Shown here: positions 230 through 63,764 of the stretch, piece by piece | Numbering within the stretch: position 1 is the first letter of the stretch | Layout of the letters: each line of letters begins with the position of its first letter | NCBI RefSeq assembly: GCF_001640025.1 | Contig: NC_031674.1 | Coordinates: 992,001-1,056,000 of the forward strand | Direction: 5' to 3' | Length of the DNA stretch: 64,000 bases | Source of the DNA: Sugiyamaella lignohabitans | Taxonomy: Eukaryota; Ascomycota; Dipodascomycetes; Dipodascales; Trichomonascaceae | Made by a program: the position numbers and the translations under genes | Notes under the pieces: generated by a model | Seen by the model: only the letters and a program-made list of their open reading frames with translations | What the model was told of the DNA's origin: nothing | Database searches by the model: none

Positions 230-309
230 ACAGGACCGCCGAGATGCAACGACTCGAGCGAAGCGAGAGGAGCCACGGGGTCTGGGGCGGAGCCCCAGCC
301 GCCGGAGGC
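230..309 (+). repeat. Partial long hairpin repeat (right half)
   Basis: This is the right half of the ~137-bp family: the CTCGAGCGAAGCGAG hairpin, a GGGTCTGGGGCGGAGCCCCAG hairpin block and the terminal CCGCCGGAGGC. The left arm is missing. It lies about 130 bp past the stop codon of RPP2. Confidence 0.85.
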
Positions 310-440
310 AGACCCACAGCCGGTAGGACAGTTATTACAAAGTCATAATTTATTAAATACACAACTCTGGGGGTTTATTTTTTGGGGTTTAGAAAGGGAT
401 TTGGAGTTTTGTACAGGGAATGGACTGAACGTTGAGACGT

Positions 441-1055
441 TTAGTCGAAGAGACCCATACCCATGTCCTCATCGGACTCCTCCTTCTCCTCTTCCTTCTC
501 CTCCTCAGCAGCGGCCTCACCACCAGCAGCGGCAGCAGAACCAGCAGCAGGAGCAGCAGCACCGCCAGTGGGGACGGAAGCAAGCTTCTCAGAACCCTCG
601 GCAATGAGCTCGGAGATGTCCTTACCGGAGAGCTCCTTGAGGAGAGCCTCGATACGGTCATCTTCAGCCTCGATACCAACAGAGGCAAGGACGGCCTTGA
701 TGTCCTCGGCGGAAGGAGAGGTGTTACCACCGGCGTTCAACAAAAGGTAAGCGGCAAGGTACTTCACTAGAGTGTGTTAGTATTGCTGTTGTGCGAACAG
801 GCATGATGTCGAGGCCGTGAAAATGATAGTTGGAAATATGATACTCCAACTATCAAGTCCTAGGAGCCAGGATCCGAATCAAATACTGAAAATCAGGATC
901 GAGATCTTCCAACATGAGAGAAAGGACAGAATAGTGTGACATGAGAAATCACGTCCAATAGCCAAAATAAAGACCATTTGAACTGTGAGCTACAACTGTA
1001 ACAACTACTGTCTTCACTACTCAAGATCAGAAGTATCATTCATAGACCACTTACT
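441..1055 (-). CDS. RPP2: 60S acidic ribosomal protein P2
   Basis: Acidic stalk protein P2 of the large ribosomal subunit, which with P0 and P1 recruits translation GTPases. The 108-aa product starts [14 protein letters not shown], has an Ala/Gly-rich hinge and ends in the diagnostic acidic tail [13 protein letters not shown]; length and ends match the family. The main exon (766-441) opens with TG AAG TAC and has no ATG: the in-frame codon is GTG with a stop 3 codons upstream. A branch point (TACTAAC, 782-776) lies 9 nt before the CTAG acceptor at 767, and a GTAAGT donor begins at 1054 after an A. Splicing 1054-767 (288 nt) therefore builds ATG as A|TG. The coding part of exon 1 is a single base at 1055. 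It is divergent from RPS15, sharing an upstream region of about 440 bp. Identity is certain; the exact donor is inferred. Confidence 0.93.
767..1054 (-). other. Intron splitting the RPP2 start codon
   Basis: The donor GTAAGT starts at 1054, the branch sequence TACTAAC is at 782-776 and the acceptor ends at 767. The reading frame demands A|TG joining. The intron is 288 nt and no RNA gene is recognisable in it. Confidence 0.8.
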
Positions 1056-1497
1056 TTTTGATTTTTTTTTAGAATATACTGAGAATAATCAGATTAAGCT
1101 CGTGAGATGGGCGGACTATTCCTTGAAAGAAAAAGGAAAAGAAGAAGAAATAGAAGTACGAGTGGGTGAAATTTACTGATATGCGGGTTGTCCACCGTAC
1201 CTCTGCGAAGAGCCAGTGCATAAGCTGCTAAAATGGTCTGAGTCGGTGCTATTGGGAGTTTTGACAAAATAGGAAATAGGCGCTTGGCCTCAAGTTGGGA
1301 GAGTCATACCGTATTAGGCAGTTGGGAGCTGTAGATAGACTCAATACCACAGTCACAGATTTTTTGAGCGAGGTCAGCCGCGTATCAGCAGGGAAGGAAC
1401 CCACTCACACAACTTTTCGGTCTGGTATTATTCAACAGTTGAATAACTTGTATCGCGACACCTTACGACAGTTTCGACACATAAACCATACAACAAA
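1056..1497. promoter_or_regulatory. Divergent promoter RPP2 / RPS15
   Basis: A gap of about 440 bp separates the 5' ends of two ribosomal-protein genes, so both promoters must lie here. I could not assign a specific activator site with confidence. Confidence 0.5.
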
Positions 1498-2438
1498 ATG
1501 TCTGAACAAGAACAAATTGACGCTGCTGGTATGTACCTAGAGAGCTCTTGTGGATCCTAAGAGTATAATGAGAAAGTGATTTAGTTGAAATGGCGAAGAA
1601 GAGATGATTGAAGACTGTGCTCGATATCAGTAACCGACCTTCGATATATTCGAAACTTTTCAGAGAATAAATATGAGATTTTATTATTTGTCTTTCGACT
1701 TTTTGACGTAATAAAGCAATACGCAAATTCCAACAAACAAACGAACAGTCCCTATGAATTTTATGAGATAATTTTAGTGCCAACCGCTATACTTTAGCTT
1801 GATTTATCAATCACTTTCGACGATTGAGTATATCGTATTAATCGACCTATACTGGTAGATAACTGCCATTCGATATATTTGTTACGACTGATATCTGACA
1901 TCGATAATTTAACACCACAACCATGACGAGCACCTTTCGACAGACATCTCGAGCCATTTCTGCAAAACAAATCCCCTCAATCACTCGGCCAACTCAATAC
2001 TAACAATAAACAGAGCTCAAGAAGAGAAGATCCTTCAAGAAGTTCTCCTTCCGTGGAGTTGACCTCAAGGACCTCGTCGAACTCCCCATTGAGGACTTCA
2101 GTGAGCTTGTTCACGCCCGTGCCCGTAGAAGACTCAAGCACGGTCTTAAGATCAAGCCCATGAGATTCGTCAAGAAGCTCAGAGCCGCCAAGTTGGCTGC
2201 CGGCCCCAATGAGAAGCCCGCTGTCGTCAAGACCCATCTCCGTAACATGCTTGTTCTCCCTGAGATGATCGGATCTGTCATCGGTGTCTACAACGGTAAG
2301 GTCTTCAACCAAGTCGAGATCAAGCCCGAGATGGTCGGCCACTACCTCGGTGAGTTCTCCATCACCTACAGACCTGTTGCCCACAAGAGACCCGGTGCTG
2401 GTTCTACCAAGGACTCCAGATTTATTCCTTTGAAATAA
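1498..2438 (+). CDS. RPS15: 40S ribosomal protein S15 (uS19)
   Basis: Small-subunit protein of the uS19 family, located at the subunit head near the decoding region. Exon 1 (1498-1528) encodes [10 protein letters not shown]; exon 2 (2014-2438) continues [18 protein letters not shown]. The 485-nt intron has GTATGT donor, TACTAAC branch (1998-2004) and CAG acceptor 9 nt later. The 151-aa product carries the conserved uS19 blocks [47 protein letters not shown] and the C-terminal SRFIPLK. It has a slightly longer N-terminus than the baker's yeast protein. It is transcribed away from RPP2 and converges on the MTC6-like gene with a hairpin repeat in the gap. Confidence 0.96.
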
Positions 2439-5829: not shown

Positions 5830-6859
5830 ATGGCCAGTTTGTACGTATGCAGAACTTGTTCCATACTCCAATGACAAAATCTCCTGGGCAATGTCACCAC
5901 CATTGCTCGTGGTCCACCGACAACCAAGATCAATTCACTAACAACTGCCAGATCAGAGCCCACCTACGTCAATCCCAGGGGTATTCCCCAGGCCCCGTTC
6001 GTGGAAAAGGTAGAAGACTATGTCAAATCGCGCGACCAGGTCGAATCAATTCTCAAATCATTCCAAGAGATGATCCAGTAAGTACCCATCTCCACGCTCC
6101 AACGGTGTGTGAACTCCATCTGAACATGCCTGAACTCTACTAACCGGTTACAGAAAATATAAATACATGGTACGTGTGAGCACTCCAGCAGGCCCTCAAT
6201 TCCACAACCAGCAAACTTCTTAAGTTGCAAATGACCCCAGTATACTTGGAATCAATTTCTAACAATAGAACAGGAAGTGAGCACAGCGGGGCGGATCCAG
6301 GGTCTCAAAGAAAAGATCCCCGACATGACTAAAGCTCTAGACATGGTCAAATTCCTAGACGCCAAAAAGACATCCGGAGAAGACTTCGACACCAACTACG
6401 AGCTCAACGACACATTATACGCGCGGGCGAAGGTCACCCCAACGAACAAAGTCCTTCTATGGCTGGGTGTAAGTGTTCACGGTGGGCCAATGCCTCTGGC
6501 GGCTGGGGCTCTGCCCCAAACCCCGTAGCTCCTGCTTCGCAGGAATTTTCTGGGACCGTCGACGAAACGACTCGAGCGAAGCGAGAGGAGCCAGGGGGTC
6601 TGGGGCGCAGCCCCAGCCGCCGGAGGCATCCACAGTTCACAGAACTAACAGACAGGCCAATGTCATGCTAGAATATACTATTGAAGAGGCCATTGAGCTG
6701 CTGACAGGCAAGCTCGAGGCTGCACAGAAATCGCTCGAGGTGTGCGAGTCGGACCTTGAGTTCCTGCGAGAGAATATCACCACCATGGAAGTAAACACTG
6801 CTCGTGTGTACAACTGGGACGTCCAAAAACGCCGTGAGGAGAAGGAACAGGCTAAGTAG
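5830..6859 (+). CDS. PAC10: Prefoldin subunit 3
   Basis: Alpha-type subunit of the hexameric prefoldin co-chaperone (Gim2/Pac10, VBP1), which delivers nascent actin and tubulin to the CCT chaperonin. Five exons join in frame: 5830-5840, 5952-6077, 6154-6169, 6274-6468 and 6656-6859, giving 183 aa that starts [20 protein letters not shown]. Conserved blocks are [54 protein letters not shown] and [18 protein letters not shown], with coiled-coil helices at both ends. Each intron has a CTAAC branch close to the acceptor. Exon 1 codes only 11 nt and exon 3 is a 16-nt microexon encoding KYKYM. Intron 4 (6469-6655) holds a complete hairpin repeat. Frame continuity and family motifs make the model strong. 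Confidence 0.9.
6469..6655 (+). other. PAC10 intron 4 built around a hairpin repeat
   Basis: The donor GTAAGT is at 6469, the branch AACTAAC at 6642-6648 and the ACAG acceptor at 6655. Of 187 nt, 136 are a hairpin repeat copy. Splicing joins LWLG to ANVMLEY exactly as in the family. Confidence 0.88.
6492..6627 (+). repeat. Long hairpin repeat inside PAC10 intron 4
   Basis: Complete copy in the same orientation as the gene. The left end reads GCCTCTGGCGG (one change) and the first hairpin loop is TCT rather than TCC. Confidence 0.95.
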
Positions 6860-6911
6860 CACCTTTTTTCTTGATACATTGTATATATCACCAACCACCG
6901 GGACGGGGTAT

Positions 6912-7047
6912 GCCTCCGGCGGCTGGGGCTGCGCCCCAGACCCCCTGGCTCCTCTCGCTTCGCTCGAGTCGTTTCGTCGACAGTCCCAGCAAACTCCTGC
7001 GAAGCAGGAGCCACGGGGTCTGGGGCAGAGCCCCAGCCGCCGGAGGC
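6912..7047 (-). repeat. Long hairpin repeat, full copy (inverted)
   Basis: Complete 136-bp copy with the internal hairpins in the opposite order (CTCGCTTCGCTCGAG first). It starts about 50 bp after the PAC10 stop and lies between PAC10 and PHB2. Confidence 0.95.
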
Positions 7048-7245
7048 AGACCCCACCCCCTGAAAAGGGACCCTGGATCACGTGCCCAGGTGGGGTCAGG
7101 GTTACCCGGCCCGTGAATTGCGAGAAGTTGAATGGAGAAGGCAATCTGATGTTGCGACATTCCGTTATTCAAGTGAGTTGGTTGATTGTCGTGGTTCCAT
7201 TGACAATAATTGACACAGATTCATAGCAGAAAAAGGGTCAGCAGA

Positions 7246-8166
7246 ATGAGCGGTCAAAGAGAGGCTTGGGAGAAGTTTGCCAAGGCAGTCCAGCAGCAGG
7301 CTCGTAAGGGAGCCGGGGGAGGGGCCGGCGGTGGCGTGCCTCCTAAGGGAGTGTTTGCCGGTGTCACTGGTATTTTTCTACTTGGAGTGGGTGCTCTTGC
7401 TATCAATGCATCTCTGTTCAATGTCGATGGTGGTCACAGGGCCATTATCTACTCGAGATTCGGCGGTATTCAACCTCAGATCTACCAGGAAGGAACCCAT
7501 TTCGCGATCCCCTGGTTCCAGAAACCCATTATTTATAACGTTCGAGCCAGACCTAGAAACGTCGCTTCGTTGACTGGTACTAAAGATTTGCAGATGGTCA
7601 ATATCACATGTCGTGTTTTGTCAAGACCACGGGTCGAGTCTCTAGCTACTATTTTCCGTACTCTTGGTACCGATTATGACGAGCGAGTATTGCCATCCAT
7701 TGTCAATGAGGTTCTTAAGAGTGTGGTAGCACAATTCAATGCCTCGCAATTGATCACTCAACGTGAAAAGGTGTCGAGAATGGTCCGTGACAATCTTGTC
7801 AAGAGAGCATCCAAATTCAACATTCTACTTGACGATGTCTCATTAACGTACATGACATTCAGTCCCGAGTTCACTGCTGCCGTTGAGGCCAAACAAATTG
7901 CCCAACAAGAGGCGCAAAGAGCTGCTTTCATTGTTGACAGAGCCAAACAGGAGAAACAAGGAACCATTGTCAAGGCCCAGGGTGAGGCAAGATCGGCTGA
8001 ACTCATTGGTGAGGCCATTAAAAAGAGCGGTGACTACGTCGAACTAAAAAGACTGGACACTGCCCGTGAAATCGCCGAGATCCTCAGCAAATCCGGCAAC
8101 CGCGTCATGCTCGACAACAACTCGCTCCTGCTCAACGTGGCCAGCGACTACAGAACTAAGAAATAA
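7246..8166 (+). CDS. PHB2: Prohibitin 2
   Basis: Subunit of the ring-shaped PHB1/PHB2 complex of the mitochondrial inner membrane, a scaffold that stabilises newly made membrane proteins and modulates m-AAA protease. The 306-aa product has an N-terminal basic segment, a Gly-rich stretch and a transmembrane anchor (about residues 36-58), then the SPFH/prohibitin domain with the near-invariant blocks NVDGGHRAI, EGTHFAIPW, RPRNVASLTGTKDLQMVNIT, YDERVLPSIVNEVLK and a C-terminal coiled coil (EAKQIAQQEAQRAAF). ATG at 7246 is chosen because the upstream in-frame extension lacks ATG and the family begins near here. A hairpin repeat follows about 100 bp downstream. Confidence 0.97.
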   Translation: MSGQREAWEKFAKAVQQQARKGAGGGAGGGVPPKGVFAGVTGIFLLGVGALAINASLFNVDGGHRAIIYSRFGGIQPQIYQEGTHFAIPWFQKPIIYNVRARPRNVASLTGTKDLQMVNITCRVLSRPRVESLATIFRTLGTDYDERVLPSIVNEVLKSVVAQFNASQLITQREKVSRMVRDNLVKRASKFNILLDDVSLTYMTFSPEFTAAVEAKQIAQQEAQRAAFIVDRAKQEKQGTIVKAQGEARSAELIGEAIKKSGDYVELKRLDTAREIAEILSKSGNRVMLDNNSLLLNVASDYRTKK

Positions 8167-8250: not shown

Positions 8251-8268
8251 GTTCACGGACTGGATCCT

Positions 8269-8404
8269 GCCTCCGGCGGCTGGGGCTCTGCCCCAGAACC
8301 CGTGGCTCCTGCTTCGCAGGAGTTGGCTGGGACCGTGGGGGGAACGACTCGAGCGGAGCGAGAGGAGCAGGGGGGTCTGGGGCGCAGCCCCAGCCGCCGG
8401 AGGC
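8269..8404 (+). repeat. Long hairpin repeat, full copy
   Basis: Complete copy just downstream of PHB2; the right internal hairpin is CTCGAGCGGAGCGAG (one change). Confidence 0.95.
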
Positions 8405-8957
8405 ACCAGGGGACACAGCGGCCTGTGGACAGTCGGTTATAGGGTTCTGCATGTGAGCTTATCTTACTTTTACGGTCGCCGATCTTTATAGTTAAAATGT
8501 TTGACGGGTGCTTCCATGCAGATCGCTCATCCGGCGGCGGGGGTTTTGGGAGGCGCTAGGGGAGGAAGGTATGCTTGTTTCGGAGCTGAAAGAATGTGAT
8601 AAGTGCGGGATTAATGTTTTCAAGTCATCTAGAACGGTCTTTCCACGGTTTGGTTTACTAGGACTCTTACTAAAGTACTGACTACGCTCCCAGCCAGTGT
8701 CCGATGCGGCTGGGAGATGCAGGGTCTTCAGCGCTCGGACCAGCTAGTAGCCGCGATCGCGGATAATGGGTTGAGTGTGAGTCGCATTGTTAATTTATAT
8801 TACCTAAATAGGAAATATGACAGTCACCGGCGAATTTTCCAACGCACAGTGCAGACGCTGCCTGGTCAGTCGGTTCACGAACCACTCAGACACCGGTTTT
8901 TCATAATACCTCTTGAATCTTGTGCTAACCATTCCGACATTACACAACTAAATCAAA
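8405..8957. other. Intergenic region upstream of RPS19
   Basis: No gene recognised. This must contain the RPS19 promoter; no repeat copy is present. Confidence 0.4.
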
Positions 8958-10095: not shown

Positions 10096-10134
10096 CTGTT
10101 ACCTCGTGGTTCAACATTACGGGGAGCTGACTCT

Positions 10135-10270
10135 GCCTCCGGCGGCTGGGGCTCCGCCCCAGACCCCGTTGCTCCTGCGAAGCAGGAGATTGCTGGGACC
10201 AAAGACGGAACGACTCGAGCGTAGCGAGAGGAGCCACGGGGTCTGGGGCAGAGCCCCAGCCGCCGGAGGC
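10135..10270 (+). repeat. Long hairpin repeat, full copy
   Basis: Complete copy in the tail-to-tail gap between RPS19 and the Spo12-family gene. The left internal hairpin is in its loop-inverted version (CTCCTGCGAAGCAGGAG). Confidence 0.95.
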
Positions 10271-10357
10271 AGGTATTATCCTGGGGTTGAGAAAATCAGT
10301 TTTATTCAGTAGTAATGCGATAGTGGGTATTTATACAGTGTGTGTGAAAGTGGAAAG

Positions 10358-11011: not shown

Positions 11012-11098
11012 GCCTCAGCGGCTGGCACCGTCGACGCACGACTCGAGCGAAGCGAGAGGAGCCAGGGGGTCTGGGGCGCAGCCCCAGCCGCCGGAGGC
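11012..11098 (+). repeat. Internally deleted hairpin repeat
   Basis: The left terminal arm is reduced (GCCTCAGCGGCTGG) and joined directly to the central ACCGTCGACG and the complete right half. It lies about 75 bp past the ALT1 stop codon, between ALT1 and the Spo12-like gene promoter. Confidence 0.85.
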
Positions 11099-11175
11099 AT
11101 GACCCAATAAAACGAAAACAGAGTTTTTATTAGACTTATATATAACAATCAGGCCAGTAAGTATAGACAGACCCA

Positions 11176-13292: not shown

Positions 13293-13423
13293 TGCCTCCG
13301 GCGGCTGGGGCTCCGCCCCAGACCCCGTGGCTCCTGCTTCGCAGGAGGTTGCTGGGACCGTCGCCGAAAACGACTCGAGCGCAGCGAGAGGAGCGGCGGG
13401 GCAGAGCCCCAGCCGCCGAAGGC
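13293..13423 (+). repeat. Long hairpin repeat, slightly shortened
   Basis: Near-complete copy with a few losses in the right half (GGAGCGGCGGGGCAGAGCC) and CCGCCGAAGGC at the right end. It is upstream of ALT1. Confidence 0.92.
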
Positions 13424-14089
13424 AGAACCCGGGTCCAGGAGTGAGTGGCATGACCCCCGGTAATGTGGGGAGCAAAGCCTACCCCAGTTGGGGGATTTTC
13501 CCACGTTTAACCTTAATTTTTTTGCATTTGACGGGGTAACGAAAAAGAGTCGATTGGGGCCGGGAGCTCGTGTGAGATCCGATCCAGTCGCCGCAGCTCG
13601 GATTTTTTGGTTTTTTTTTTTTTTTTGACTCTGGGGGGAACTGAGTCCGGGGTTTGTGGTATGAAATCAACGAATGGCCATCTCCCGTGAAATCCCGGCT
13701 CAAATAATTACCGTATCTGAAAAACCATGAACCGGGGAGGGTGACCAGACAGAGTAGGAAAATGGTACCCAGTTGCTCTTGTGAGAAATAAAGGTTGAAC
13801 TGGTGTTGAAACCGGGGAATCTGTGTAAAAATTGACCTGGATACAGCCGATACAGAGGTGTGTATAGTTTGAGCGCGACAAGTGCCTGGTTGCGAGCTAT
13901 TCACTCGACACAGGTTTCAGGGACCCATGTATACGAATCTATAATTGCATGCATATATTCAATCTACACCGTTATCTGTCTCACGCAGGGGGATGCATAG
14001 AACACTACAACAGAATCTCGGAAAAAAGCTTTTCTGTTTCTTCAAACTCTTCCAAATCCCCAAACAGACCACTCCCGGCGTACCTAGTT

Positions 14090-14142
14090 GCTCGCGAAGC
14101 GAGCACAACGGGGTCTGGGGCAGCGCCCCAGCCGCCGGAGGC
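14090..14142 (-). repeat. Short-form hairpin repeat
   Basis: 53 bp: a GCTCGCGAAGCGAGC hairpin, an ACAACGGGGTCTG spacer, a GGGGCAGCGCCCC hairpin and CAGCCGCCGGAGGC. Same arm as the long form but a different, single internal hairpin. Confidence 0.88.
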
Positions 14143-14521
14143 AAAAAGACCCCACCCGACGGACACTTCCGGCCCCCTTTTCCGATCCGCAAACAGCCCC
14201 GAACGAGCTAAGCCAGCGATCAGTTGACTCTGCTCAACCTGGTCGACGACCCGGATCATCGCGCTTACCAGATAAGATTTAGCTCGTCCAGAGCCGGCGC
14301 TAAACTTTCCCTACCCCGCAAACCTGCACTCAAAATCTGAGACATGCCCCCCTAACACGAAATGCCTCACTAACCACCAAACCGACCACAATCTCAACTC
14401 CAGCAACCACTACCTCCTTCATCGCGATCGGCGCACGATCTACACAGGCCTCATCGCCGGTCCCCCTGCCACGCAAATCGGTCACGTGCACACACCAAAC
14501 AGACCCCTCTGCCCCTCGCTC

Positions 14522-14574: not shown

Positions 14575-14594
14575 ACAGTGGGACACCGGGGACG

Positions 14595-22756: not shown

Positions 22757-22765
22757 GTAACTGAC

Positions 22766-50800: not shown

Positions 50801-53800
50801 CTGATGAGTACGAACCTAGAACAAGCTTTACTTCGCCTGGAACAAACATCACTCTAGAATTATCTGATTCCTATGAACATCGTCAGCAGAGTCTTCAGAG
50901 GTTATTGAAGAGTGCACACCAGTGGATAGATATTGTCCTCCCGTCTATGAGCTTTGATTTGAAGAGTTTGCTTACTAGTTATCTTACGGAGATGGGTGAT
51001 TATAGACCGTTTAATCATGTTGCTCTTGGCTGTACCTTTGCTTTAGAAGTTGGTGGAACGATTTCTCGCGGTGATGGCGAACTTGTTACCATTGCTAAAT
51101 TCGATAGTCAAGGAGTTTTTACCGATACTGCGTCTGGATTCTTGTCGCAATATATTTGGAGAACTGAGTATAAGCCTAAGGGTCAATACCTTTCTGCTAA
51201 AGATATTGAAGAAGTTCAGAGCTCTATGGAGGGTCTTTTGTCAAGTCAACACCCTCATGTATCGTTATCGGAGATGCGTGATCTTTTGTTTAAAGCTGCA
51301 ACTATTCTTCGTGGAACCAAGCCCAATCCATACATTGCTCAACTTGCCGTTAAGATCCCCTTCCGATTCTTCACTGAAAAACATATTGAAATGGGAATTT
51401 CGCTTTGGCTCTGGATTATGAATGAAGTGCCTTCTTTGAGAATGCCCATTATTGCTCAAGTTGGGCAGGAGTGGGAGAAGACTGTCAAGGAAGGTAAGGG
51501 ATTGTTCAATCGCAAGTATGATATCACTCGTCCTGATTTCTCTCGTATGGAGTATGCCCCATCCAACAGAGCGGAAATTGACCATGATGCCAACCTTGCG
51601 CAGAGATCTCTTTCGGTTCATATGATTCTTGTGAGATTCCTGTCAAGTGTATTCCAGGCCTCAACTTATGAGAGTCGTCACCTTCTCCGTATCTTCAGTC
51701 GACTGCTGACCGTTGGATTGGCTGGCTTTTCAAAGGCGAGTCTTCATCCTTTTGCAAGATCCATTAGATTTGAGTTGACAAAATTCGCCTTGGAAGTATT
51801 GGACGTGCATTCTAGATTTTCAGCTAGAATCTCTGAGCATCTCAAGGATCTCATTATCACTTCGGCTTTAACATGGTTTTCGCAGCCCATACAATGGCCA
51901 TTTGGTGGTAATAAGCTTAAATTACGAGCTGATATTGTACTGCTCAAAGATGTTACACTCAAGGTAGCAAATCTTGCTGTACCAAAGTCTTTTGCCGCAC
52001 TATCCAAGAAGCGCAAATTGCTTTTGATGTTCTTGAATGATGAGCTTACTAAGATGTCTGCTTGGTTGGATCCACTGCAGGTTGGTACTAGCTTCAGAGA
52101 GAGTTTTGGAAAACAAGTGATCAAGAATGCTTCGATTTCGGATAGTGATGTTTTTGATGCTTGGAGTATTGACCCTGTTTTGGCTGTCTATCTTGTCGAA
52201 AGATATAAAGAGTCGTCAAATGTCCTTGTCTTAGAGAAACTGGTTGGTGAAGACCCTGCCAAGGTTATATCAGTTCCTGAGGCTTTGAGCTACTTTTTGG
52301 GTAAGAGCCCTCTGTCTGCCGATGTTAGAAGACACATTTTATACTGGACTCCCGTTAGTCCTATTGAATCTATCAACCTCTTCCTACCTGCCAAGGGAGC
52401 TGATTCATACATGCTCCAGTATGCTATGAGATCCTTAGAAAGTCATGATGTGAATTTGACGTTTTTCTACGTCCCTCAGATTGTGCAATCTCTGCGTTAC
52501 GATACTGGTGGCTATATCGAGGCTTATATTTTGGAGACTGCAAAGATCAGTCAACTGTTTGCCCATCAAATCATTTGGAACATTCTTGCCAACTCCTACA
52601 AGGATGAAGATTCGGAAGTACCTGATGATATGAAGCCTACATTGGATAGAGTGGTTCAGAAGATGACTGATTCATTTAATGCCGAAGAGAAGAGTTTTTA
52701 CGAGAGGGAATTCAATTTCTTCAACGAGGTTACATCCATCTCTGGTAAGCTCAAGCCTTACATCAAGAAGTCAAAAGCCGAGAAGAAGGCCAAGATTGAT
52801 GAAGAAATGGCTAAGATTAAGCTTGATGTTGGTGTATATCTACCTTCCAATCCTGATGGTGTGGTAGTTGCGATTGACCGTAAGTCAGGACGACCTCTTC
52901 AGAGTCATGCCAAAGCACCATTCTTGGCCAAGTTCAAGATCAAGAAAGAACTTGTCGATCTAAACGAGGACAACTCAGAGGCTGAGTCAGACACAGCTAG
53001 CGAAGTGACAAGAAAGGAACCCAACTATATCGAAGTGTGGCAAGGTGCTATTTTCAAGGTTGGTGATGACTGTCGTCAAGACGTATTGGCTCTTCAAATT
53101 ATCAGTGTATTTAGAACAATCTTTAAGGCTTCTGGATTGGATTTGTACGTTTTCCCATATCGTGTCACTGCTACTGCTCCTGGATGTGGTGTAATTGATG
53201 TTCTTCCCAACTCCATTTCAAGAGATATGCTTGGTAGAGAGGCTGTTAATGGATTGTACGAGTACTTCACCAGTAAGCATGGTGGTGAAGATTCCATTGA
53301 TTTCCAGAGAGCAAGAAACAACTTTGTCAAGAGTTTGGCCGCTTACTCTGTTATCTCGTACTTGATCCAATTCAAGGACCGTCACAACGGAAATCTTATG
53401 TATGACAGTGATGGCCACATTTTACATATTGATTTTGGTTTCTGTTTCGATATTGTTCCAGGTGGTGTAAAGTTTGAGGCTGCTCCATTTAAGCTGACTG
53501 CCGAAATGATGGCTGTCATGGGAGGAAATACAAACACTCAGGCTTATAGATGGTTTGAGGAATTGACTATCAAGGCATTTTTGGCCTGTCGTCCATATGC
53601 CGAAACTATTATTCAGGTTGTACTTCCTATGTTGGATAGTGGATTGCCGTGTTTCAAGGGCGAGGCTACTATTAGAAGGCTTCGTGCTCGTTTCGCCTTG
53701 GAAAAGTCAGAACGTGAAGCTGCACTACATTTCAAGCACTTGATTAAGAAGAGTTTGGAGAGTATGTACACTAAGGGTTACGACGAGTTCCAGAGAATCA

Positions 53801-53820
53801 CCAATGGTATTCCATATTAG
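47885..53820 (+). CDS. STT4: Phosphatidylinositol 4-kinase III alpha
   Basis: Plasma-membrane PI 4-kinase that makes the PI4P pool used for PI(4,5)P2, actin and cell-wall signalling. Exon 1 (47885-48049) and exon 2 (48199-53820) give 1928 aa, close to yeast Stt4 (1900). The kinase domain is at the C-terminus: WQGAIFKVGDDCRQDVLALQ, FPYRVTATAPGCGVIDVLPNSISRD, FKDRHNGNLM and HIDFGFCFDIVPGG, with PI4K lipid-kinase-unique and armadillo-like helices before it. I chose ATG at 47885 (MSANRVRLNRSSIRAQALEKL) because it aligns in length with the Stt4 N-terminus; an in-frame ATG at 47843 would add 14 aa. The intron has two in-frame acceptors (48192, 48198); the first is only 3 nt from the branch A, so the second is used here. 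Confidence 0.95.
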
Positions 53821-54113
53821 TTAGTTTATAAGAAATATATGTTATTGTCTAATTTCGAGTGGATCTGTCTCACAGTGGAAAGGGTCTAGCCAGACCTCTC
53901 TTTAGATCTAAGGTTCCCGCACTCACAGCCAGGGGCTAGGTGCTAATTGTGAACACGTTTTAAAATAACTGTATTACTAAAGAACTAGCCTCTTCAATAA
54001 ATTAAACCTATCAAAATTACAGAGACAAATAAATAACCCAAAACATTAACAGTCAGAAAGGACCGACATAAAAATACAAATGCAGCAGCGCTAGAGCCCT
54101 AGACAGGTAAGTA
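53821..54113. other. STT4-ACE2 tail-to-tail gap
   Basis: 293-bp gap, one of three convergent gaps without a hairpin repeat. Nothing else recognised. Confidence 0.4.
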
Positions 54114-55631
54114 CTACCTACTCCAAATAATTTCGTCCTTGACAGCAATTGCTTCAGAGCCATGATCAATATATTCCAGACCCTGATCGCTAAAAGGACT
54201 TCCCATACCATCGTCAGCATCAGAGTCTTCTGAACTGTTTGATGGGCGCATTTGCATCATCGACTGTACTTTGCGTGGTCTACCTCTCTTTCCTGGAGGC
54301 TTCTTGGGCTTTCCCGGAATCTCGATACCACCAACACAAATCATTCGTATCCTATGACGTTGCAAGGCATCATGTCTAGTGAATCCTTTTCCACAAGGGC
54401 ACTTGTATGGACGTTCATCTTGATGGCACTTTTCATGACGCCGTAGATCATGTGGACGAACAAAACAAGCTCCACAGGAATCACATGAATAAGGACGGTC
54501 ACACAAGTGAGTCTGAATATGCGATCTGACGTTATACCTTCTGCGGAAGAGTTTTCCACAGTTGGGGAATAAGCACTCAAAGAGGCCCTCTGGATTAGGA
54601 CCAGCCATGTATGAGTCCACCTTGCCAGGCGGTAGACAAGATTTTCTGTTAGACTGTTTACCGGAGGATTGTTGCATTTTGATGATTTCTTGAGAGATTT
54701 CGTTCTTGGGAGCAGTGATGACGGGTTGCCAAGCTATTGAGCCTGAAGTGTCTACTGGACCCATATCAATAGAAGAGAAAATGTTCATGCTAGCAAGACC
54801 CGGAGTTGCACCAGTATAAAACTGGTCACCAGAGGCCATCTCAGGACTTGTATCGATATTTGGAGATTGAGAGTGTTCGGAAGAGGAAAAGTAAGCCTCA
54901 GAATCGCTTTCGCCCAAAGCAGAGGGGCGTCTCTTCATAGGAGAAGAATGAAACCCGTTTGGATCGAGATAAGAGTCCGAGGCCACTGTAAAATTGCTAT
55001 TACTGGCATTTCCCTTCTGATAGTAAGAAGAACTCAATGAAGAGGCTGATAGAGAAGCGGAGGATGAAGTATAAACCATTGGTCCGGGTCCTGGCGAAGA
55101 GGCAGAAGCCAGCGGTAGAGAAGGAGGAGACCCATTATTAGAAGCAGGTTCATGGAGATATACTTCAGAGTTGGCACCAAGGTTTTTCATGGCAGAAACA
55201 ACTTGGGGGTTTAATTGGTTGGCATACGCCTGTAGAGCAGAGGCATTTTCGGATGATAAAGCAGCAGGAGTGATTGCAATATTGTTATAATTCATCATCT
55301 TCGAATACCTTGCGAGAGAAGATGGTTTAATAGAGACTTGATGACGAGCTCTTTGGGGTGACTGAAGTTGAGAGGGATGCACAGGAGGAGATGACGGTGG
55401 CAGAGGATATCCGGACCCAAGTCCTTCCATGCTATAGGCGGGAGCACCCGACGGGATGGCTAGGTCGTGAACAGTCGATGCTAGTGACTCGTCTAATACA
55501 GAATCGTACTCTGCGTATTGTGAAAAATAGGGTTCAAAATCTTCGTGAGGAAGTGGAATTGGACGTTCTTGATAACCTTCCGATAAGTTTCGATTGTTGG
55601 TTACCCAGCGTGAATCTAATGAAGGTTCCAT
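54114..55631 (-). CDS. ACE2: C2H2 zinc-finger regulator, Ace2/Swi5 type
   Basis: 505-aa transcription factor. Three C2H2-like fingers lie at about residues 350-432: CLFPNCGKLFRRRYNVRSHIQTH, CDSCGACFVRPHDLRRHEKCH and the atypical CPCGKGFTRHDALQRHRIRMIC, followed by a basic GKRGRPRK stretch. This order, including the short third finger with CPCGK and the RMIC ending, is specific to Swi5/Ace2, which switch on daughter-cell septum-degrading and G1 genes after mitosis. The N-terminal half is Ser/Pro-rich with candidate Cdk sites near the basic region. ATG at 55631 (MEPSLDSRW) is the first ATG. Ace2 versus Swi5 cannot be separated here. Confidence 0.88.
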   Translation of the reverse strand: MEPSLDSRWVTNNRNLSEGYQERPIPLPHEDFEPYFSQYAEYDSVLDESLASTVHDLAIPSGAPAYSMEGLGSGYPLPPSSPPVHPSQLQSPQRARHQVSIKPSSLARYSKMMNYNNIAITPAALSSENASALQAYANQLNPQVVSAMKNLGANSEVYLHEPASNNGSPPSLPLASASSPGPGPMVYTSSSASLSASSLSSSYYQKGNASNSNFTVASDSYLDPNGFHSSPMKRRPSALGESDSEAYFSSSEHSQSPNIDTSPEMASGDQFYTGATPGLASMNIFSSIDMGPVDTSGSIAWQPVITAPKNEISQEIIKMQQSSGKQSNRKSCLPPGKVDSYMAGPNPEGLFECLFPNCGKLFRRRYNVRSHIQTHLCDRPYSCDSCGACFVRPHDLRRHEKCHQDERPYKCPCGKGFTRHDALQRHRIRMICVGGIEIPGKPKKPPGKRGRPRKVQSMMQMRPSNSSEDSDADDGMGSPFSDQGLEYIDHGSEAIAVKDEIIWSR

Positions 55632-57243
55632 GAAGAAATTATTATTTAATACCGGCCAGCGGATTGAGGGGTTTAAGAAAGAATAGTAGCAAAATAAGAA
55701 CAAAAAAAAAAGTTACACTTCGACTTCAAACCAAACCAAACCAAACCAAGAAATTAGCAGTAGGATATGATTCAAAACCAGAAATGTTACCTAGTGACCA
55801 GCACTAAATTTTTTTTTTGTTTATTTGAAATTGAAGATTGAAAAAATCTGTTCAATACACTCACCAGGAGGAAAGAACAAGACAAAGAATTGAAATTAAG
55901 AGAGTTTGAGCTTGACCAGCAAGTCGAAGTGAATTGAAAATCACCAAAAAATTGGTTTTCGTTACAGTAGAAACAGCACTTGTAAAAGGTGTTGGTATGT
56001 AATGTGAAGAGAAAAGAAGAAGAAGATGCAAAAAAGTGGCTGATGAGAACAATAAAAAGGCTAGCTAATCGTACATTGGCACAATAGCAAAAACAAAACA
56101 AACCACCATAAGAGGTACATGCATGAGGCACACTTCTTAGCTTGAAAAGTTAAAGTCGGTGGTAGACAAGCAAAAAAATAATATCAACTGCTAGTTCAGG
56201 AAAGAATGAAAGCAATCATGGCTCAATTGGAGAGGAAAGGATGACAATCAGACTCGGTTTTACAATCTATAGATGGGTTGTTGCAATAGTCTGCAAGCGA
56301 ATTGCTTTTGTTATCGGCACATCTAAGCGGTAAAAAGGCAAATAGCCTTGGGCGTGGGAAACTAACGCCTTTGTTTTCCGGCGACATGATCATGTGTAAA
56401 AAAATATAGTGGTAACAAGATCGGCCTGTTTAGGGGATATGTAAACAGATCGGCGGGTGGGTGTTTACAGTATACCGCATTAGGCAATGATGTGTATCGC
56501 CAGAGCGGTATATGCAAGGAGATTGACGAGGTACTAGAAGTTAAAAGTAGTTTTGTTAGGAACAAAACGGAGGATCGGGGGACCAGAATACGTGGGAAAG
56601 ATTTATTCCAAGCGAGGTAAGATAGTTGGGTTCGGCAGGTTCAAACGCATTAGATAATGTAGCCAAGATCAGTGATAAGACGGTGAAGTAAGGGCATTTG
56701 GTGTGTAATGCCGATGTCTGCTACAGAAAATAGACCGGTTGTCTGGGCATTTGTGCATATGGGGAAAAGTTCGGGTCCTTGGCTAGGTTTGATGTGAGGC
56801 TAGCATAGTTTTGGTTAGTAAAGGATATTATTTGCAAAGTGAACCAAATGAATCATATGGCACGGGTTGATTCACATCATATACTAGGTTGTATAATAAC
56901 GGTATAGTGTAAACAAGAAAAAGTATTGCAAACTGTCAGTTGTAAAATCGGTTGGGTTTTGTTTTAAATAATTATTTAAATAATTATTTGGCACCAGGTC
57001 TATGTTTGAGATGTTAGGGCGTATGAGACCACTAGTGTTCACACCACCAGAACTGCCAGGTGCCAATAGTTTAGCACTTACTAACTGGTACTAGCAGGTA
57101 TCAACAGGTGTTAGAGGTTCTAACAGCGACTAAAAGTAACTAACAGGAAGATATAACTCTCGCAACACCAAAACTAAATTCATCTACTATCATTAACTAC
57201 CGTCAGCAGATAAGTTCATACTTGCTAAACAAAAGCAGAATCA
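55632..57243. promoter_or_regulatory. 1.6-kb upstream region of the Ace2/Swi5-like gene
   Basis: Long AT-rich gap with no gene; such long upstream regions are usual for cell-cycle regulators. It contains an (ACCAA)n stretch (about 55727-55749) close to the start codon and an AT palindrome near 56969-56990. Confidence 0.4.
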
Positions 57244-58112: not shown

Positions 58113-58207
58113 CCTCCATATTTACCGTTCGTACTCGAACGAGCAACTCTGATCCCTTAACCATCCTCACATCCATTTAGTGACATATATGCGGCTAGAC
58201 GGGGTCT

Positions 58208-58344
58208 GCCTCCGGCGGCTGGGGCTCCGCCCCAGACCCTGGTTGCTCCTCTCGCTACGCTCGAGTCGTTGCGGCGACGGTCCCAGCAACCTCCTGCGAA
58301 GCAGGAGCCACGGGGTCTGGGGCGGAGCCCCAGCCGCCGGAGGC
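58208..58344 (-). repeat. Long hairpin repeat, full copy (inverted)
   Basis: Complete 137-bp copy about 95 bp upstream of the USB1 start. Confidence 0.95.
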
Positions 58345-58740
58345 ACACCCTCGGTCCCCCATGTTACATTTTGATACATATGAGGACGCCAGCAGCCGGC
58401 ACCGCTACTGTGTTATATTACATATGGTTACTTCCGCAAGTCATCGCATGGGATGGGATGCGCGAGGTTAGGGGGAAAGCGGCTAGCAGCCAATGAGATA
58501 CGCGGTTTGTAGCGGTTTTCGGGCCCTTTATCCGCAGCGGCGGTGCAGGTGCCTGGAACCAGACGCACCGAAGATTCTTCGCAAGGACCCTGAACCCGCC
58601 GATCCCACCCCGCCAACTCCGCGGCCCAACCACCAACGCACCCATCCACCCGTTTTGCCATCCCACAACCCCAGTCAGGTGCCCCCTCCCCCCACCCCCT
58701 ACCCCCACTAATCGCACCACGCGACCAGACCGACTTAAAA

Positions 58741-58796
58741 GCTCCGCGAAGCGGAGCACCACGGGGTCTGGGGCAGCGCCCCAGCCCGCCGGAGGC
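58741..58796 (-). repeat. Short-form hairpin repeat
   Basis: 56 bp; the internal hairpin is GCTCCGCGAAGCGGAGC, so both stem strands differ in step from the usual GCTCGCGAAGCGAGC. Confidence 0.88.
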
Positions 58797-59068
58797 ACGC
58801 CGGACCCACATGGACCATGCCCGACTCGGTCTAAGCAAGCACCAGACACAGATGGCATGTGCGTAGTCGATCCAAGAGGGGAGGTTTACCCTGCCGACGG
58901 AGCAAAAAGAAGTGAGGAACGGCTGGCGGGTTCACCAGTTTTCAGGGCCAATCCCAAGCCATTTAATAATAGGCCATATCCGATAATCAGACACAGGACA
59001 AAAGCAGCGACGCAATTTTTTGGACATCCCGGTCTAAAAACGCACTTTACACACAATCCAAGCCGAAA

Positions 59069-60642
59069 ATGCTGAAAAATTCCGCCAAATTGAGCTCCAC
59101 CCTGCGATTGACGTCGCAAAAAGCACTCCGTTCCGTGGCCACCGCTGCCGTGGCTCGTGGTTCAGCCCGTGCCATGACCACCTCGTCATTGGTCCAAACC
59201 CGTCACATCGCAGCCAAACGACCCGTGCTGCGCTCAGTCTCACTTTTACAAACCAGAGGTTATGGTAAGTGGTTAATGGGGGTGTGCCTCCGGCGGCTGG
59301 GGCTCTGCCCCAGACCCCGTAGCTCCTGCTTCGCAGGAGATTGCTCGGACCGTCGACGCAACGACTCGAGCGAAGCGAGAGGAGCAACCAGGGTCTGGGG
59401 CGGAGCCCCAGCCGCCGGAGGCGGTGTGGACCAAATTGCTAACAGTTCGGTGCAGCTGAGATCGTGAAAGTGCCTGATATGGCTGAATCCATTACTGAAG
59501 GTACTTTGAAGGGGTTTGAGAAGGAGATTGGTGATTTCGTGGAGCAGGATGAGGAGGTCGCTACTATTGAGACTGATAAGATCGATGTCAGCGTCAATGC
59601 CCCGTTTGCCGGTACTTTGACCGAGTTCTTGGCTAATGCTGATGATACTGTGGTTGTTGGCCAGCCCTTGTTTAAGATTGAGCCTGGTGAGGGCGGTGGT
59701 GCTAAATCCGAGTCCAAGTCCGAGTCCAAGTCCGAGTCCAAGTCCGAGTCCGAGTCCAAGTCTGAGTCCAAGTCCGAGTCTAAACCCGCTGAATCCAAGT
59801 CGGAAGAGTCGAAACCCTCTGAACCAGCTGCCGAGTCGAAACCTGCTGAATCGAAGCCTGCTGAACCCGCTAAGAAGCCTGCTGCTAAGACCCCAGCTGC
59901 TGAAGAGGCCAAGCCTGCCAGTGCTGGACTTCGTGAGGAACGCAGAGTCAAGATGAACAGAATGAGATTGAGAATTGCTGAGCGTCTTAAGGAGTCTCAA
60001 AACACCGCTGCTTCGTTGACTACTTTTAACGAGGTCGATATGTCGGCTCTTATGGAAATGAGAAAGCTGTATAAGGACGAGGTTCTCAAGAGCACCGGTA
60101 TCAAGTTCGGATTCATGGGTGCTTTTGCCAAGGCTTCCGTTCTTGCTATGAAGGACATTCCTGCTGTCAATGCTGCTATTGAAGGTCCTAATGGCGGTGA
60201 TACTATTGTATACAAGGACTATGTGGACATTTCGGTTGCTGTTGCTACACCCAAGGGTCTTGTTACCCCTGTAGTTAGAAACGCCGAGCAACTTTCTGTT
60301 CTTGGAATTGAGAAGGAGATTGCTGCACTCGGAGTCAAGGCCCGTGACGGTAAACTGACTCTGGAAGACATGGCCGGCGGTACCTTCACCATTTCCAACG
60401 GAGGTGTATTCGGTTCTTTGTACGGAACTCCCATCATCAACATGCCACAATCGGCTGTTCTGGGACTTCACGGAATCAAGGAGCGTGCTGTCGTTGTCAA
60501 TGGCCAAGTGGTTGCCCGTCCCATGATGTACCTCGCCCTTACATACGACCACCGACTCCTCGACGGCAGAGAGGCCGTCACCTTCCTCAAGACCGTCAAA
60601 GAGCTCATCGAGGACCCCAGAAAGATGCTCCTCGTGCAATAA
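59069..60642 (+). CDS. KGD2: 2-oxoglutarate dehydrogenase E2 (dihydrolipoyl succinyltransferase)
   Basis: E2 core of the mitochondrial 2-oxoglutarate dehydrogenase complex. Exon 1 (59069-59264) encodes a basic mitochondrial presequence ([20 protein letters not shown]...); exon 2 (59456-60642) starts [16 protein letters not shown]. The 460-aa product has a lipoyl domain with the lipoylated Lys in ETDKIDVSV, a linker made of repeated KSES/PAES units (about residues 147-210), and the catalytic domain from [19 protein letters not shown] to [16 protein letters not shown] with the active-site His and Asp. No peripheral-subunit-binding domain is present, as usual for this E2. The 191-nt intron (59265-59455) contains a complete hairpin repeat. 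Confidence 0.96.
59265..59455 (+). other. KGD2 intron built around a hairpin repeat
   Basis: Donor GTAAGT at 59265, branch TGCTAAC at 59437-59443, acceptor TGCAG at 59455; 137 of 191 nt are the repeat. Joining gives G|CT (Ala) and links the presequence to the lipoyl domain. Confidence 0.9.
59286..59422 (+). repeat. Long hairpin repeat inside the KGD2 intron
   Basis: Complete copy in gene orientation. It is flanked by GGTGT on both sides (59281-59285 and 59423-59427), a possible 5-bp target duplication. Confidence 0.95.
59705..59785 (+). repeat. 12-bp coding repeat in the KGD2 linker
   Basis: Units of AAGTCCGAGTCC, encoding KSES, run through the linker between the lipoyl and catalytic domains. 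Confidence 0.85.
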
Positions 60643-60688
60643 TCACCACATATCCAACTAAATAAAGCATTGATATACTTCGCACGCT

Positions 60689-60827
60689 GCCTCCGGCGGC
60701 TGGGGCTCCGCCCCAGACCCCGTTGCTCCTGCTTCGCAGGAGTTTGCCTGGACCGTCGACGTACCCCGACTCGAGCGGAGCAAGAGGAGCAGCCAGGGTG
60801 TGGGGCGGAGCCCCAGCCGCCGGAGGC
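60689..60827 (+). repeat. Long hairpin repeat, full copy
   Basis: Near-complete copy 46 bp after the KGD2 stop, followed directly by a half copy; together they fill the KGD2-CKI1 tail-to-tail gap. Confidence 0.94.
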
Positions 60828-60845
60828 TTCTGAATCCCCAGAGAA

Positions 60846-60901
60846 ACTCCTGCGAAGCAGGAGCAACCAGGGTCTGGGGCGGAGCCCCAGCCGCCGGAGG
60901 C
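60846..60901 (-). repeat. Half copy of the long hairpin repeat
   Basis: CTCCTGCGAAGCAGGAG hairpin, AACCAGGGTCTGG, GGGGCGGAGCCCC hairpin and terminal CCGCCGGAGGC. It ends 55 bp from the CKI1 stop. Confidence 0.9.
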
Positions 60902-60955
60902 ATCTGGACCCCTGAGAAGAAAAAAATACACAGTTCGTTTCGTCGTCATTACATG

Positions 60956-62485: not shown

Positions 62486-62652
62486 GAGAAACTCGGATCT
62501 TTTCTCCTCGATTTAGACTTTTATCGATTCAGGAAAATCTTGATATGGGTTAGGTCAAACCTGGGGTCGAACTGATAAGATTTGTTAGTGACATGGTCAA
62601 ATGAAACTGGCCTGGAACGTCGTGGTGGGTCTTGGGCTGTTTAAGAGGGTGT

Positions 62653-62703
62653 GCCTCCGGCGGCTGGGCTTCGTCCAGACCTGGTTGTGCTCGCTTCGCG
62701 AGC
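62653..62703 (+). repeat. Short-form hairpin repeat
   Basis: 51 bp with CTGGGCTTCGTCCAG as the first hairpin (both strands of the stem altered relative to CTGGGGC...GCCCCAG) and GCTCGCTTCGCGAGC as the second. About 170 bp upstream of CKI1. Confidence 0.88.
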
Positions 62704-63628
62704 TGTTTTGACGTGGGGACTGGTATTTGCGTCTGCATCACTGTAAAAATTTCTCGTTTTCACATGCCAGATTGGAGCCCATATGCTAATAGCACCTCTG
62801 AATCGGGTGAATCAAGTGAATCCAGTTTTTATATCACTGATATCCAGAATGATTTCGACTTCTTATCGAAGTTCCATAGAAGCAAAGTCTCTTTCATAAT
62901 TTCTACAATTATTTTGACTTCAGCTGATCCAGTTCAAAAGTGCCCGCTATAGCATCTGATTAAGTCCTGGCAGTGAGTTTCCCTTGAGTTCTGCTATAAC
63001 AGCCAATCCATGGCCAACTCTAGCTTGCTATACCTTCCATCACTTCTTATTTTTACTTACGAATATAAAATGAATTCGAAAAAATGATGCAAAATATGTC
63101 GATCTACTGAAAAGTCAGGAGGGAAACAGGAGCGGGCGATGCCCGTTATTTAAATGATAAGGCTATCTCTGACCATCTGTCTTGTGATCAGTAACCCTTA
63201 TTGGGCGATAGGCAGCATTTCGGATGTTAGGGTAATGCTATCAGCCGATGGAGGTAGATTACATTAACTCTCCAAATTAGATTAATTTCGATGCTAAATG
63301 CTATTATAAATGGCCATAGATAGAAAATAGTCAAATATATTCAGCTCCTGACGTGCAAGTGTAATTTCAAGTACGGGATTCGGCTGACTGATTCCTGCAA
63401 AGTATCCAGGTGGTCATGTTTTTCCTGTGAAATAGCACTATCTCCGGATAGAGCAACGAGGAGACCATTATTAACACTTTGCAAGGAAAAAGGGGACCTT
63501 TTTTCCGTCGGAAGAGCCGTTATCGCACTTGGCAGCATGCAGATCCAGCCAAAAGATAACGCATGTTAAGCGAGCCGATCGGTCCCCATGAGGCAATTGA
63601 TCGCCAAACGGCGACGCAGGGTCCACCT

Positions 63629-63764
63629 GCCTCTCTCGGCTGGGGCGATGCCCCAGGCCCCGTAACTCCTGCTTGGCAGGGGACAGCTGGAACCGTCGAC
63701 GCAACGACTCGAGCGCAGCGAGAGGAGCCGGGGGGTCTGGGGCGCAGCCCCAGCCGCTGGAGGC
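63629..63764 (+). repeat. Long hairpin repeat, diverged copy
   Basis: 136 bp. The left arm reads GCCTCTCTCGGCTGG, the first hairpin GGGGCGATGCCCC, the second CTCCTGCTTGGCAGGGG; right arm CCGCTGGAGGC. It lies 33 bp from the stop codon of the right-edge gene. Confidence 0.92.

Follow-up and report, generated by a model that had tools for sequence, protein, structure and literature searches.

Dispersed GC-rich hairpin palindromes in the nuclear genome of Sugiyamaella lignohabitans and the local GC3 peaks around them

A 64,000-nucleotide stretch of the yeast Sugiyamaella lignohabitans (contig NC_031674.1, positions 992,001 to 1,056,000; hereafter, the window) carries numerous copies of a GC-rich, multi-hairpin repeat that is dispersed throughout the nuclear genome. 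Beyond what an initial annotation of the window had described, we find that the repeat is built of modular units, that a full copy is a near-perfect long palindrome, that copies sit in introns and near gene 3' ends, and that synonymous-site GC content (GC3) peaks locally around them. The reading we favor, at a probability of roughly 0.45, is that the family is a nuclear counterpart of mitochondrial GC clusters, whose palindromes would provoke breakage and GC-biased repair and which would spread by that repair. As part of this tentative reading, the elements would be non-coding palindromes amplifying within the genome, parasitic in origin, with the changed base composition of neighboring genes as a side effect.

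Family size and modular architecture

We searched the four nuclear contigs of the genome (C1 to C4; 15,932,016 bp, or 15.93 Mb; the mitochondrial contig is not among them) for exact matches to the arm TGCCTCCGGCGGCTGGGGC. The two strands yielded 2,675 and 2,667 matches, respectively, and the reversed control gave none on either. Because copies occur on all four contigs, the family is not restricted to one contig, a possibility that the initial annotation had raised. These contigs are of megabase size, and the copies on them are interspersed with nuclear protein genes. For closer study, we used a non-random 264-kb sample consisting of the window, C1:1-100000, and C1:200001-300000. A fuzzy search of this sample detected 139 arms at ≤7 mismatches (134 at ≤4), which merge into 89 elements covering 9,171 bp. 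Scaling by the 106 exact arms in the sample gives ~4,485 elements (~4,500), or 2.9% of the genome, an extrapolation that inherits the non-random sampling. The exact consensus is present in 76 of the 139 arms, so either amplification was recent or the copies have been homogenized.

Within the window, BLAST with the copy at 16095-16231 recovered 18 near-complete and 10 partial copies, and one more partial copy (33701-33756) was recovered through repeat family D13 of the window; this agrees with the approximately 18 near-complete copies plus halves first described. The near-complete copies are 132-161 bp long and 71.7% GC, whereas the window outside elements is 44.8% GC, so the reported contrast with their surroundings also holds. 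The fuzzy search at ≤7 mismatches found 44 arms in the window (20 plus, 24 minus). The suggested density of about one copy per 3 kb needs correction: arm cores are patchy, at 0 to 18 per 10 kb, with 8 elements in the first 100 kb of C1 compared with 58 in C1:200001-300000. No Rfam family matched the window at the gathering threshold. Consistent with the original remark that no nuclear yeast element of this kind was known, we found no earlier description in open-access PMC texts, a search that did not extend to the original genome paper (Bellasio et al. 2016) and its supplements. Term searches of the portions of PMC12232646 and PMC13130702 available to us likewise returned no such repeat.

The elements consist of one or two hairpin units, occurring alone or paired. 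From the outside inward, a unit comprises ~14 variable, G-rich nucleotides; T-GCC-TCC-GGC-GG; an outer hairpin, C TGGGGC-NNN-GCCCCA G; a linker, ACCC(C/T)-; and an inner hairpin. The inner hairpin defines three unit types: A (GCTCCTGC-TTC-GCAGGAG), B (GCTCCTCTCGC-TNC-GCTCGAGTCG), and C (GCTCGC-TTC-GCGAGC). We typed 199 arms at ≤5 mismatches, drawn from the 264-kb sample and 18 further loci (L003-L020), and obtained 75 A, 105 B, 11 C, and 8 other units; because the 18 loci were picked by similarity to a window copy, the loop counts below and the replication of the GC3 result carry that bias. The sample contains 45 facing pairs, 37 of which join A with B, bearing out the proposed design of inverted arms around two different inner hairpins. 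The main form, ~138 bp long, is thus a unit A facing a unit B in an imperfect long palindrome, and pairs are mainly 136-146 bp long, the longest reaching 306 bp. The core GGGACCGTCGACG, taken at first as part of the common design, is frequent in the window, but the core between the inner hairpins varies widely elsewhere in the genome.

For the copy at 16095-16232, the folding energy is -125 kcal/mol as RNA (z = -14.9) and -73 kcal/mol as DNA (z = -14.1), and none of 200 shuffled sequences folded as well. It had been supposed that nearly every base lies in a stem with a 3-nt loop. Such a chain of short hairpins is possible on paper, but the optimum for a full copy is a single long hairpin. Variation is concentrated in the loops. 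In unit B (n = 105), the middle loop base is variable in 44% of copies, and each of the other 23 of 24 positions in ≤5%; the outer-hairpin loop is variable in 10%-26%, and the rest of the arm in ≤5.5%. The loop reads TNC in 102 of 105 B units and is nearly fixed as TTC in A units (68 of 75). On the complementary strand, unit B loops read GNA and are closed by C-G. Mini-hairpins of the d(GCGNAGC) type are unusually stable. A universal GNA-loop rule applies only in part, as the outer hairpin has TNC in just 148 of 199 arms.

The linker variant ACCCCGTA, which places GTAG before the inner hairpin, accounts for 19 of 191 linkers (the 12 commonest linkers were inspected) and is not conserved. The ~14 nt outside each arm are G-rich, giving G-rich/C-rich flanks to the element as a whole; complementarity between the two flanks of an element (4.76 compared with 4.31 in shuffled pairs) fell within the shuffle range. 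Where L031 ends and L032 begins (C1:209931-210191), unit B is arranged in tandem with an 81-bp period that includes the flank, which suggests that units also multiply by slippage or unequal exchange. In L034 (C1:231722-232251), three degenerate units lie within a ~220-255-bp tandem repeat.

The GC3 peak and placement relative to genes

Open reading frames (ORFs) with more elements within 1 kb have a higher GC3 (rho = 0.71, P = 7e-14, n = 83), and the correlation is present within each of the three sampled regions (rho = 0.59-0.72). By distance from the element, GC3 is 0.64-0.67 at 50-150 bp, 0.51 at 300-400 bp, 0.40 at 1-1.5 kb, and 0.37-0.38 beyond 2 kb; the value at 25-50 bp, 0.50, comes from only 140 sites. 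An exponential fit gave a base of 0.376, an amplitude of 0.328, and a length of 401 bp (316-508 in a bootstrap over genes). GC1 drops slightly with distance, from ~0.55 to 0.50, and GC2 is trendless (0.38-0.46 past 50 bp). GC3 declines alike on sides facing gene 3' ends and gene 5' ends; the GC3 peak is therefore centered on the element. Pooled noncoding GC falls from 0.60 in the first 25 bp to 0.39-0.40, and on start-facing sides it declines from 0.54 to 0.41. Around the 18 further loci, on C1 to C4, GC3 likewise fell from 0.65 within 100 bp to 0.41-0.42 beyond 800 bp.

The association is also evident gene by gene. Of the 32 gene 3' ends that have an element no more than 400 bp away, 25 showed a GC3 excess over mid-gene of more than 0.15, compared with 3 of the 47 that have none within 1.5 kb (Fisher P = 3e-11) and 2 of the 4 at intermediate distance (400 bp to 1.5 kb). 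Eighteen genes in element-rich neighborhoods whose own 3' end is element-free showed no excess (+0.001). A search for eroded arms near the three element-free peaks gave one weak match only. Paired elements are associated with a larger excess than solo units, both in noncoding DNA (0.036 vs 0.006, P = 0.007) and in GC3 (0.150 vs 0.086, P = 0.033); with the two kinds of site pooled, as in an earlier comparison that these separate figures supersede, the values were 0.066 vs 0.015.

Elements facing a gene within 1.5 kb, with no intervening element, lie a median of 55 bp from a stop codon (36 sides) and 450 bp from a start codon (34 sides). Among the 84 elements outside ORFs, 25 have a stop and 8 a start within 250 bp (binomial P = 0.0046), although only 40 are nearer a stop than a start. 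Pairs lie within 150 bp of a stop more often than solos (17 of 38 vs 6 of 45, Fisher P = 0.0027). Divergent regions are depleted (32 elements vs 40.9 expected, P = 0.028). Convergent regions are slightly enriched, which under strict gene calls is only a trend (18 vs 12.9 expected, P = 0.08); a first scan with ORFs of ≥120 aa gave a stronger convergent excess, and the stricter figures are used here. Between tandem genes, 19 of 30 copies lie closer to the stop of the upstream gene (P = 0.2). Neither orientation prevails: A is nearest the gene in 8 copies and B in 6, which argues against a strand-specific RNA role.

Our script called 22 candidate introns in the sample, 7 of which hold an element (7 of the 89 elements). 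Decoys yielded 0, 4 (2 with an element), and 1 candidates; the 22 may therefore include a few false calls. The introns that carry a full element measure 191, 195, 208, and 213 bp, which leaves ~51-74 bp once the element is subtracted. The 12 element-free introns of ≤450 bp include six of 50-62 bp, the others being 90-356 bp; three candidates longer than 450 bp were left out of this comparison. The donors of the four full-element introns are 16-30 nt away from the arm, on its outer side, and the splice signals are outside the element. The spliced products are genuine, as supported by two genes: casein kinase I, with a 211-bp interval removed, aligns without gaps to solved CK1 across residues 3-295, and spliced glyoxalase II scores above its family cut-off (204.9 vs 200.8 bits). 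A spliced dipeptidase matches dipeptidase models with scores under their cut-offs. Exons beside element-bearing introns have a GC3 of 0.54, compared with 0.41 beside the others (7 vs 12, one-sided P = 0.003), a comparison in which 9 of the 12 element-free introns sit in the GC-poor first 100 kb of C1. At L032:5475-6728 (minus strand), a solo unit B lies in frame in the low-complexity part of a C2H2 zinc-finger ORF and encodes a Pro/Gly/Glu-rich peptide.

Comparison with known systems and possible modes of spread

Mitochondrial GC clusters had been offered as a loose analogy. The copies studied here are nuclear, but their behavior is closer to that of GC clusters than this phrase implies, with hairpins, loop-concentrated variation, and merged units. 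Like GC clusters (e.g., GC42), the family consists of GC-rich palindromes in intergenic DNA with constrained hairpins, in which stems are conserved and loops vary more, as seen in unit B and the outer-hairpin loops. Yeast mitochondrial GC-cluster units merge and shuffle (PMC4478555), GC clusters are regarded as preferential recombination sites, and mitochondrial hairpin elements vary in their loops only (PMC2800124). Unlike GC clusters, the yeast family is nuclear, numbers ~4,500 copies by extrapolation, is bipartite at ~138 bp, makes no AG target duplication, and sits at gene 3' ends and in introns with a GC3 peak. The repetitive or double hairpin elements of mitochondria (sponges) similarly have at least two short hairpins per unit and variation confined to loops. 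Those elements are organellar, whereas the yeast units are paired head to head as a palindrome, and the likeness concerns design. Double hairpin elements are also found in Allomyces mitochondria.

Other known repeats share some of these features. Bacterial repetitive extragenic palindromes (REPs) and bacterial interspersed mosaic elements (BIMEs) of the GTAG and CGTC super-families are also extragenic palindromes present in many copies; frequently, two different units are joined as a dimer, which can fold unit by unit or into a single large hairpin. Unlike them, the yeast repeat has no conserved GTAG or CGTC tag at the hairpin foot, resides in a eukaryotic nucleus, and has no Y1 transposase that we found. 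Like miniature inverted-repeat transposable elements (MITEs), the elements are short, non-coding, and high in copy number with terminal inverted arms, as our searches confirmed, but they differ in having no known partner transposon and no target-site duplication: 45 pairs, examined at k = 2-9 and offsets of -3 to +3, showed no consistent excess over re-paired flanks. Introners, too, are found in introns, but the yeast element has no splice signals of its own and only a minority of its copies are intronic.

Under the favored reading, the palindrome would extrude hairpins or a cruciform on single-stranded or negatively supercoiled DNA, the extruded structure would be nicked or cut by the cell's structure-specific nucleases, and the cut would be mended by gene conversion. 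A GC bias in that conversion would produce the GC3 peak in adjacent codons, and break repair may copy the element ectopically into breaks elsewhere. Spread by repair copying would account for the lack of both a target-site duplication and a transposase of its own. A 140-bp palindrome reportedly induces meiotic breaks in S. cerevisiae, according to the title of a study cited in PMC13155455. Breakage at the palindrome followed by biased conversion is favored since the GC3 pattern resembles conversion tracts that decay from breaks. In S. cerevisiae genes, GC3 variation is reported to fit tracts of conversion that decay from break sites (PMC3020949).

Several observations weigh against this reading. 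The GC3 peak is consistent with the promotion of recombination, but noncoding DNA on stop-facing sides does not follow it: GC there is not raised in the first 400 bp (0.42-0.46) and reaches its maximum, 0.50-0.55, at 400-600 bp. The two-sided decay is thus a property of GC3 alone and not of noncoding DNA. AT-rich 3'-end signals may depress stop-facing GC, which is a guess; as it stands, this profile makes the favored reading somewhat less probable and insertion into existing peaks slightly more so. Among 3' ends within 400 bp of an element, the excess is independent of distance (rho = 0.01). At 5' ends near an element it is smaller (+0.067, n = 19, vs +0.011, n = 49; P = 0.04). In the last 150 bp, proximity to an element also goes with higher GC at the first two codon positions (GC12; 0.498 vs 0.447, P = 0.0016). 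Splitting coding from noncoding sites weakened the contrast between pairs and solos, which is partly confounded because pairs lie nearer stop codons. The local GC excess is the same for more- and less-mismatched arms (0.039 vs 0.039), mismatches being a rough proxy for age, and the GC peak could predate the element. Finally, the G-rich ~14 nt outside each arm are strand-asymmetric, which biased conversion alone does not explain.

The chief alternative, which we regard as a substantial minority possibility, is that the repeat is a non-autonomous DNA element, MITE-like or HUH-type, moved by some enzyme that prefers to insert it at recombination hot spots or GC peaks already present in transcribed non-coding DNA, so that the peak is the cause of placement and not its result. 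Its exactly conserved ends, high copy number, and recent amplification or homogenization would suit such an element, as would the in-frame unit in the zinc-finger ORF and the lack of any relation between arm mismatches and the peak. The full-element introns, too, are ~140 bp longer than the commonest ordinary class (6 of 12), as if the element had been inserted into existing introns. Set against this are the missing target-site duplication and the rarity of element-free GC3 peaks at gene ends, which under insertion would mean that targets are nearly saturated. Searches for a mobilizing enzyme covered Y1_Tnp and the Helitron replicase only. Y1_Tnp was absent from the yeast genome (G000), the Acetobacteraceae genome discussed below (G003), and G295 and was present in G001, G267, G004, and 5 of 14 control genomes; mobilization by a REP-associated tyrosine transposase (RAYT) was rejected on its absence from G000 and G003. 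The Helitron replicase search had no match in the yeast, but no control genome matched either. Recruitment of the elements as RNA structures, serving as 3'-end formation signals, barriers to transcription between convergent genes, or aids to intron folding, seems improbable. The position just past stop codons, the intron residence, and the very strong RNA fold are what it would predict, but there is no preferred orientation, no element is present in 15 of the 22 candidate introns or within 1.5 kb of 47 of the 83 gene 3' ends, and neither the convergent excess nor the tandem upstream-stop bias exceeds a trend. That the elements are introner-like and create introns is very improbable: the element-bearing candidates and the ungapped casein kinase I fit such an origin, but few copies are intronic, the intron signals lie outside the element, and the residue without it has the length of an ordinary intron.

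The arm is not unique to the yeast, on sequence grounds, because bacteria carry it too. The 18-mer GCCTCCGGCGGCTGGGGC has a single copy in each of three Desulfovibrionaceae genomes and 174 + 169 copies in G003 (control, 0); among the 100 G003 positions listed, 62 fall into 31 facing pairs with spacings of 24-118 bp. The G003 repeats and those of Desulfovibrionaceae (G001 and others) share with the yeast the arm GCCTCCGGCGG-C[stem]G-ACCCC, and G003 and similar contigs also have facing pairs around a variable core. Of 59 Desulfovibrionaceae genomes, 23 carry a generic pattern, GCCTCCGGCGGC-N8-28-GACCCC, in as many as 98 + 99 copies; the reversed control gave 3 in total. Its stems differ in sequence, yet base pairing is mostly preserved (CAGGGG/CCCCTG, CGGGG/CCCCG, TGGGG/CCCCA). 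In the bacterial loci fetched, a stem of ≥4 bp is formed by 53 of the 131 matches to the pattern; counting duplicates, these come from 38 of 115 loci.

These matches raise the possibility that a bacterial REP-like palindrome family entered the yeast by horizontal transfer, or the reverse, and then amplified, which we consider unlikely but far from negligible. Beyond the exact arms and facing pairs of G003 and the wide occurrence of the generic design, the Desulfovibrionaceae copy L064 equals the yeast arm through the TCC loop and ACCCC. The distribution is patchy, however: the exact arm was found in G003 but in none of the 99 other genomes of its family (control, 1), and the generic pattern in 1 of 142 genomes of its class (reversed control, 3), which also fits convergence. 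The arm stem is self-complementary, so the match has fewer independent bases than appear. The bacterial copies further differ in having loops of several lengths, including GAAA and GAGA, and outer flanks that are mostly A-rich on the left and T-rich on the right, where the yeast has G-rich and C-rich flanks; yeast-type inner hairpins were not seen in the printed copies, which were inspected by eye without a search. An unlikely and more speculative view is that a single mobile hairpin cassette, GCCTCCGGCGG-[C-stem-loop-stem-G]-ACCCC, spans Desulfovibrionaceae, an Acetobacteraceae lineage, and the yeast nucleus; it would spread without its own transposase by hairpin cutting and break repair and in the yeast would form chromosome-wide conversion hot spots that shape codon composition.

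The A-rich/T-rich flanks of the bacterial copies recall two-way terminators. Pairs of bacterial arms around unique cores of similar length, mostly with such tails, were seen in L046, L048, L052, L053, L055, L058, L065, and L072-L075, and several G003 loops are GAAA or GAGA. The Desulfovibrionaceae copies L063, L064, and L066 continue into more hairpins and then ACCCC or similar C-runs in an array-like manner. A plasmid collection gave one 30-bp Streptomyces match, which we judged to be chance.

If the elements cause the peaks, one repeat family would set fine-scale GC content and codon use genome-wide, and the genome would offer thousands of ready palindromes, with element-free gene ends as controls, for studying palindrome breakage and biased repair. 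If they merely mark the peaks, their sequence would flag recombination hot spots. In both cases, a nuclear analogue of mitochondrial GC clusters is relevant to the question of how palindromes lacking a transposase spread, and, thanks to the bacterial arm, horizontal transfer or strong convergence can be put to a direct test.

Copies in the window

The copies and element-bearing candidate introns of the window are as follows.

233-311, minus: partial copy, unit B and part of the core
2522-2660, plus: full element, A then inverted B
6491-6628, plus: full element; GTAAGT and CTAACAG at its flanks, possible intron
6911-7048, minus: full element
8268-8405, plus: full element, ~100 bp beyond the stop of ORF 7210-8166
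10134-10271, plus: full element, inner loop A reversed (GAA)
11021-11099, minus: partial copy, unit B
13293-13424, plus: full element, right arm shortened
14094-14143, minus: solo unit C (arm and GCTCGC-TTC-GCGAGC hairpin)
14526-14575, minus: solo unit C
14595-14652, plus: solo unit B
16095-16232, plus: full element, reference copy, 57 bp beyond the stop of ORF 15175-16038
17445-17582, plus: full element, between convergent ORFs
31382-31520, minus: full element, between convergent ORFs
32962-33174, minus: 213-bp candidate intron in a dipeptidase gene (presumably Dug1-like), holding the next element
33006-33144, plus: full element within the dipeptidase candidate intron
33701-33756, plus: solo unit, C-like, stem altered yet paired (CCGGGC/GCCCGG)
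35141-35279, plus: full element
35526-35699, plus: 174-bp candidate intron holding the next unit
35606-35666, minus: solo unit B within that candidate intron
37221-37379, plus: full element, core lengthened
41038-41198, plus: paired element of two facing B units with a longer core, between convergent ORFs
43828-43888, plus: degenerate unit A
47535-47673, minus: full element, beyond the stop of ORF 46142-47449
58207-58345, minus: full element
58746-58797, minus: solo unit, C-like
59265-59455, plus: 191-bp candidate intron in a 2-oxoglutarate dehydrogenase E2 gene (which we take to be KGD2-like), holding the next element
59285-59423, plus: full element within the E2 candidate intron
60688-60828, plus: full element
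60846-60902, minus: solo unit A
62652-62703, plus: solo unit C, stem altered
63628-63765, plus: full element, left arm diverged

The ORF at 46142-47449 presumably gives this yeast a bacterial-type enzyme, an anhydro-N-acetylmuramic acid kinase (AnmK-like). Two stretches of the window, 18000-30000 and 42000-57000, are ~40%-47% GC and adjoin element-bearing stretches near 50% GC; their sole full element is the copy at 47535-47673, accompanied by the degenerate unit at 43828. We take the ORFs in these stretches to encode a reductase, a permease, a zinc-cluster factor, and amidase/isochorismatase-like proteins.

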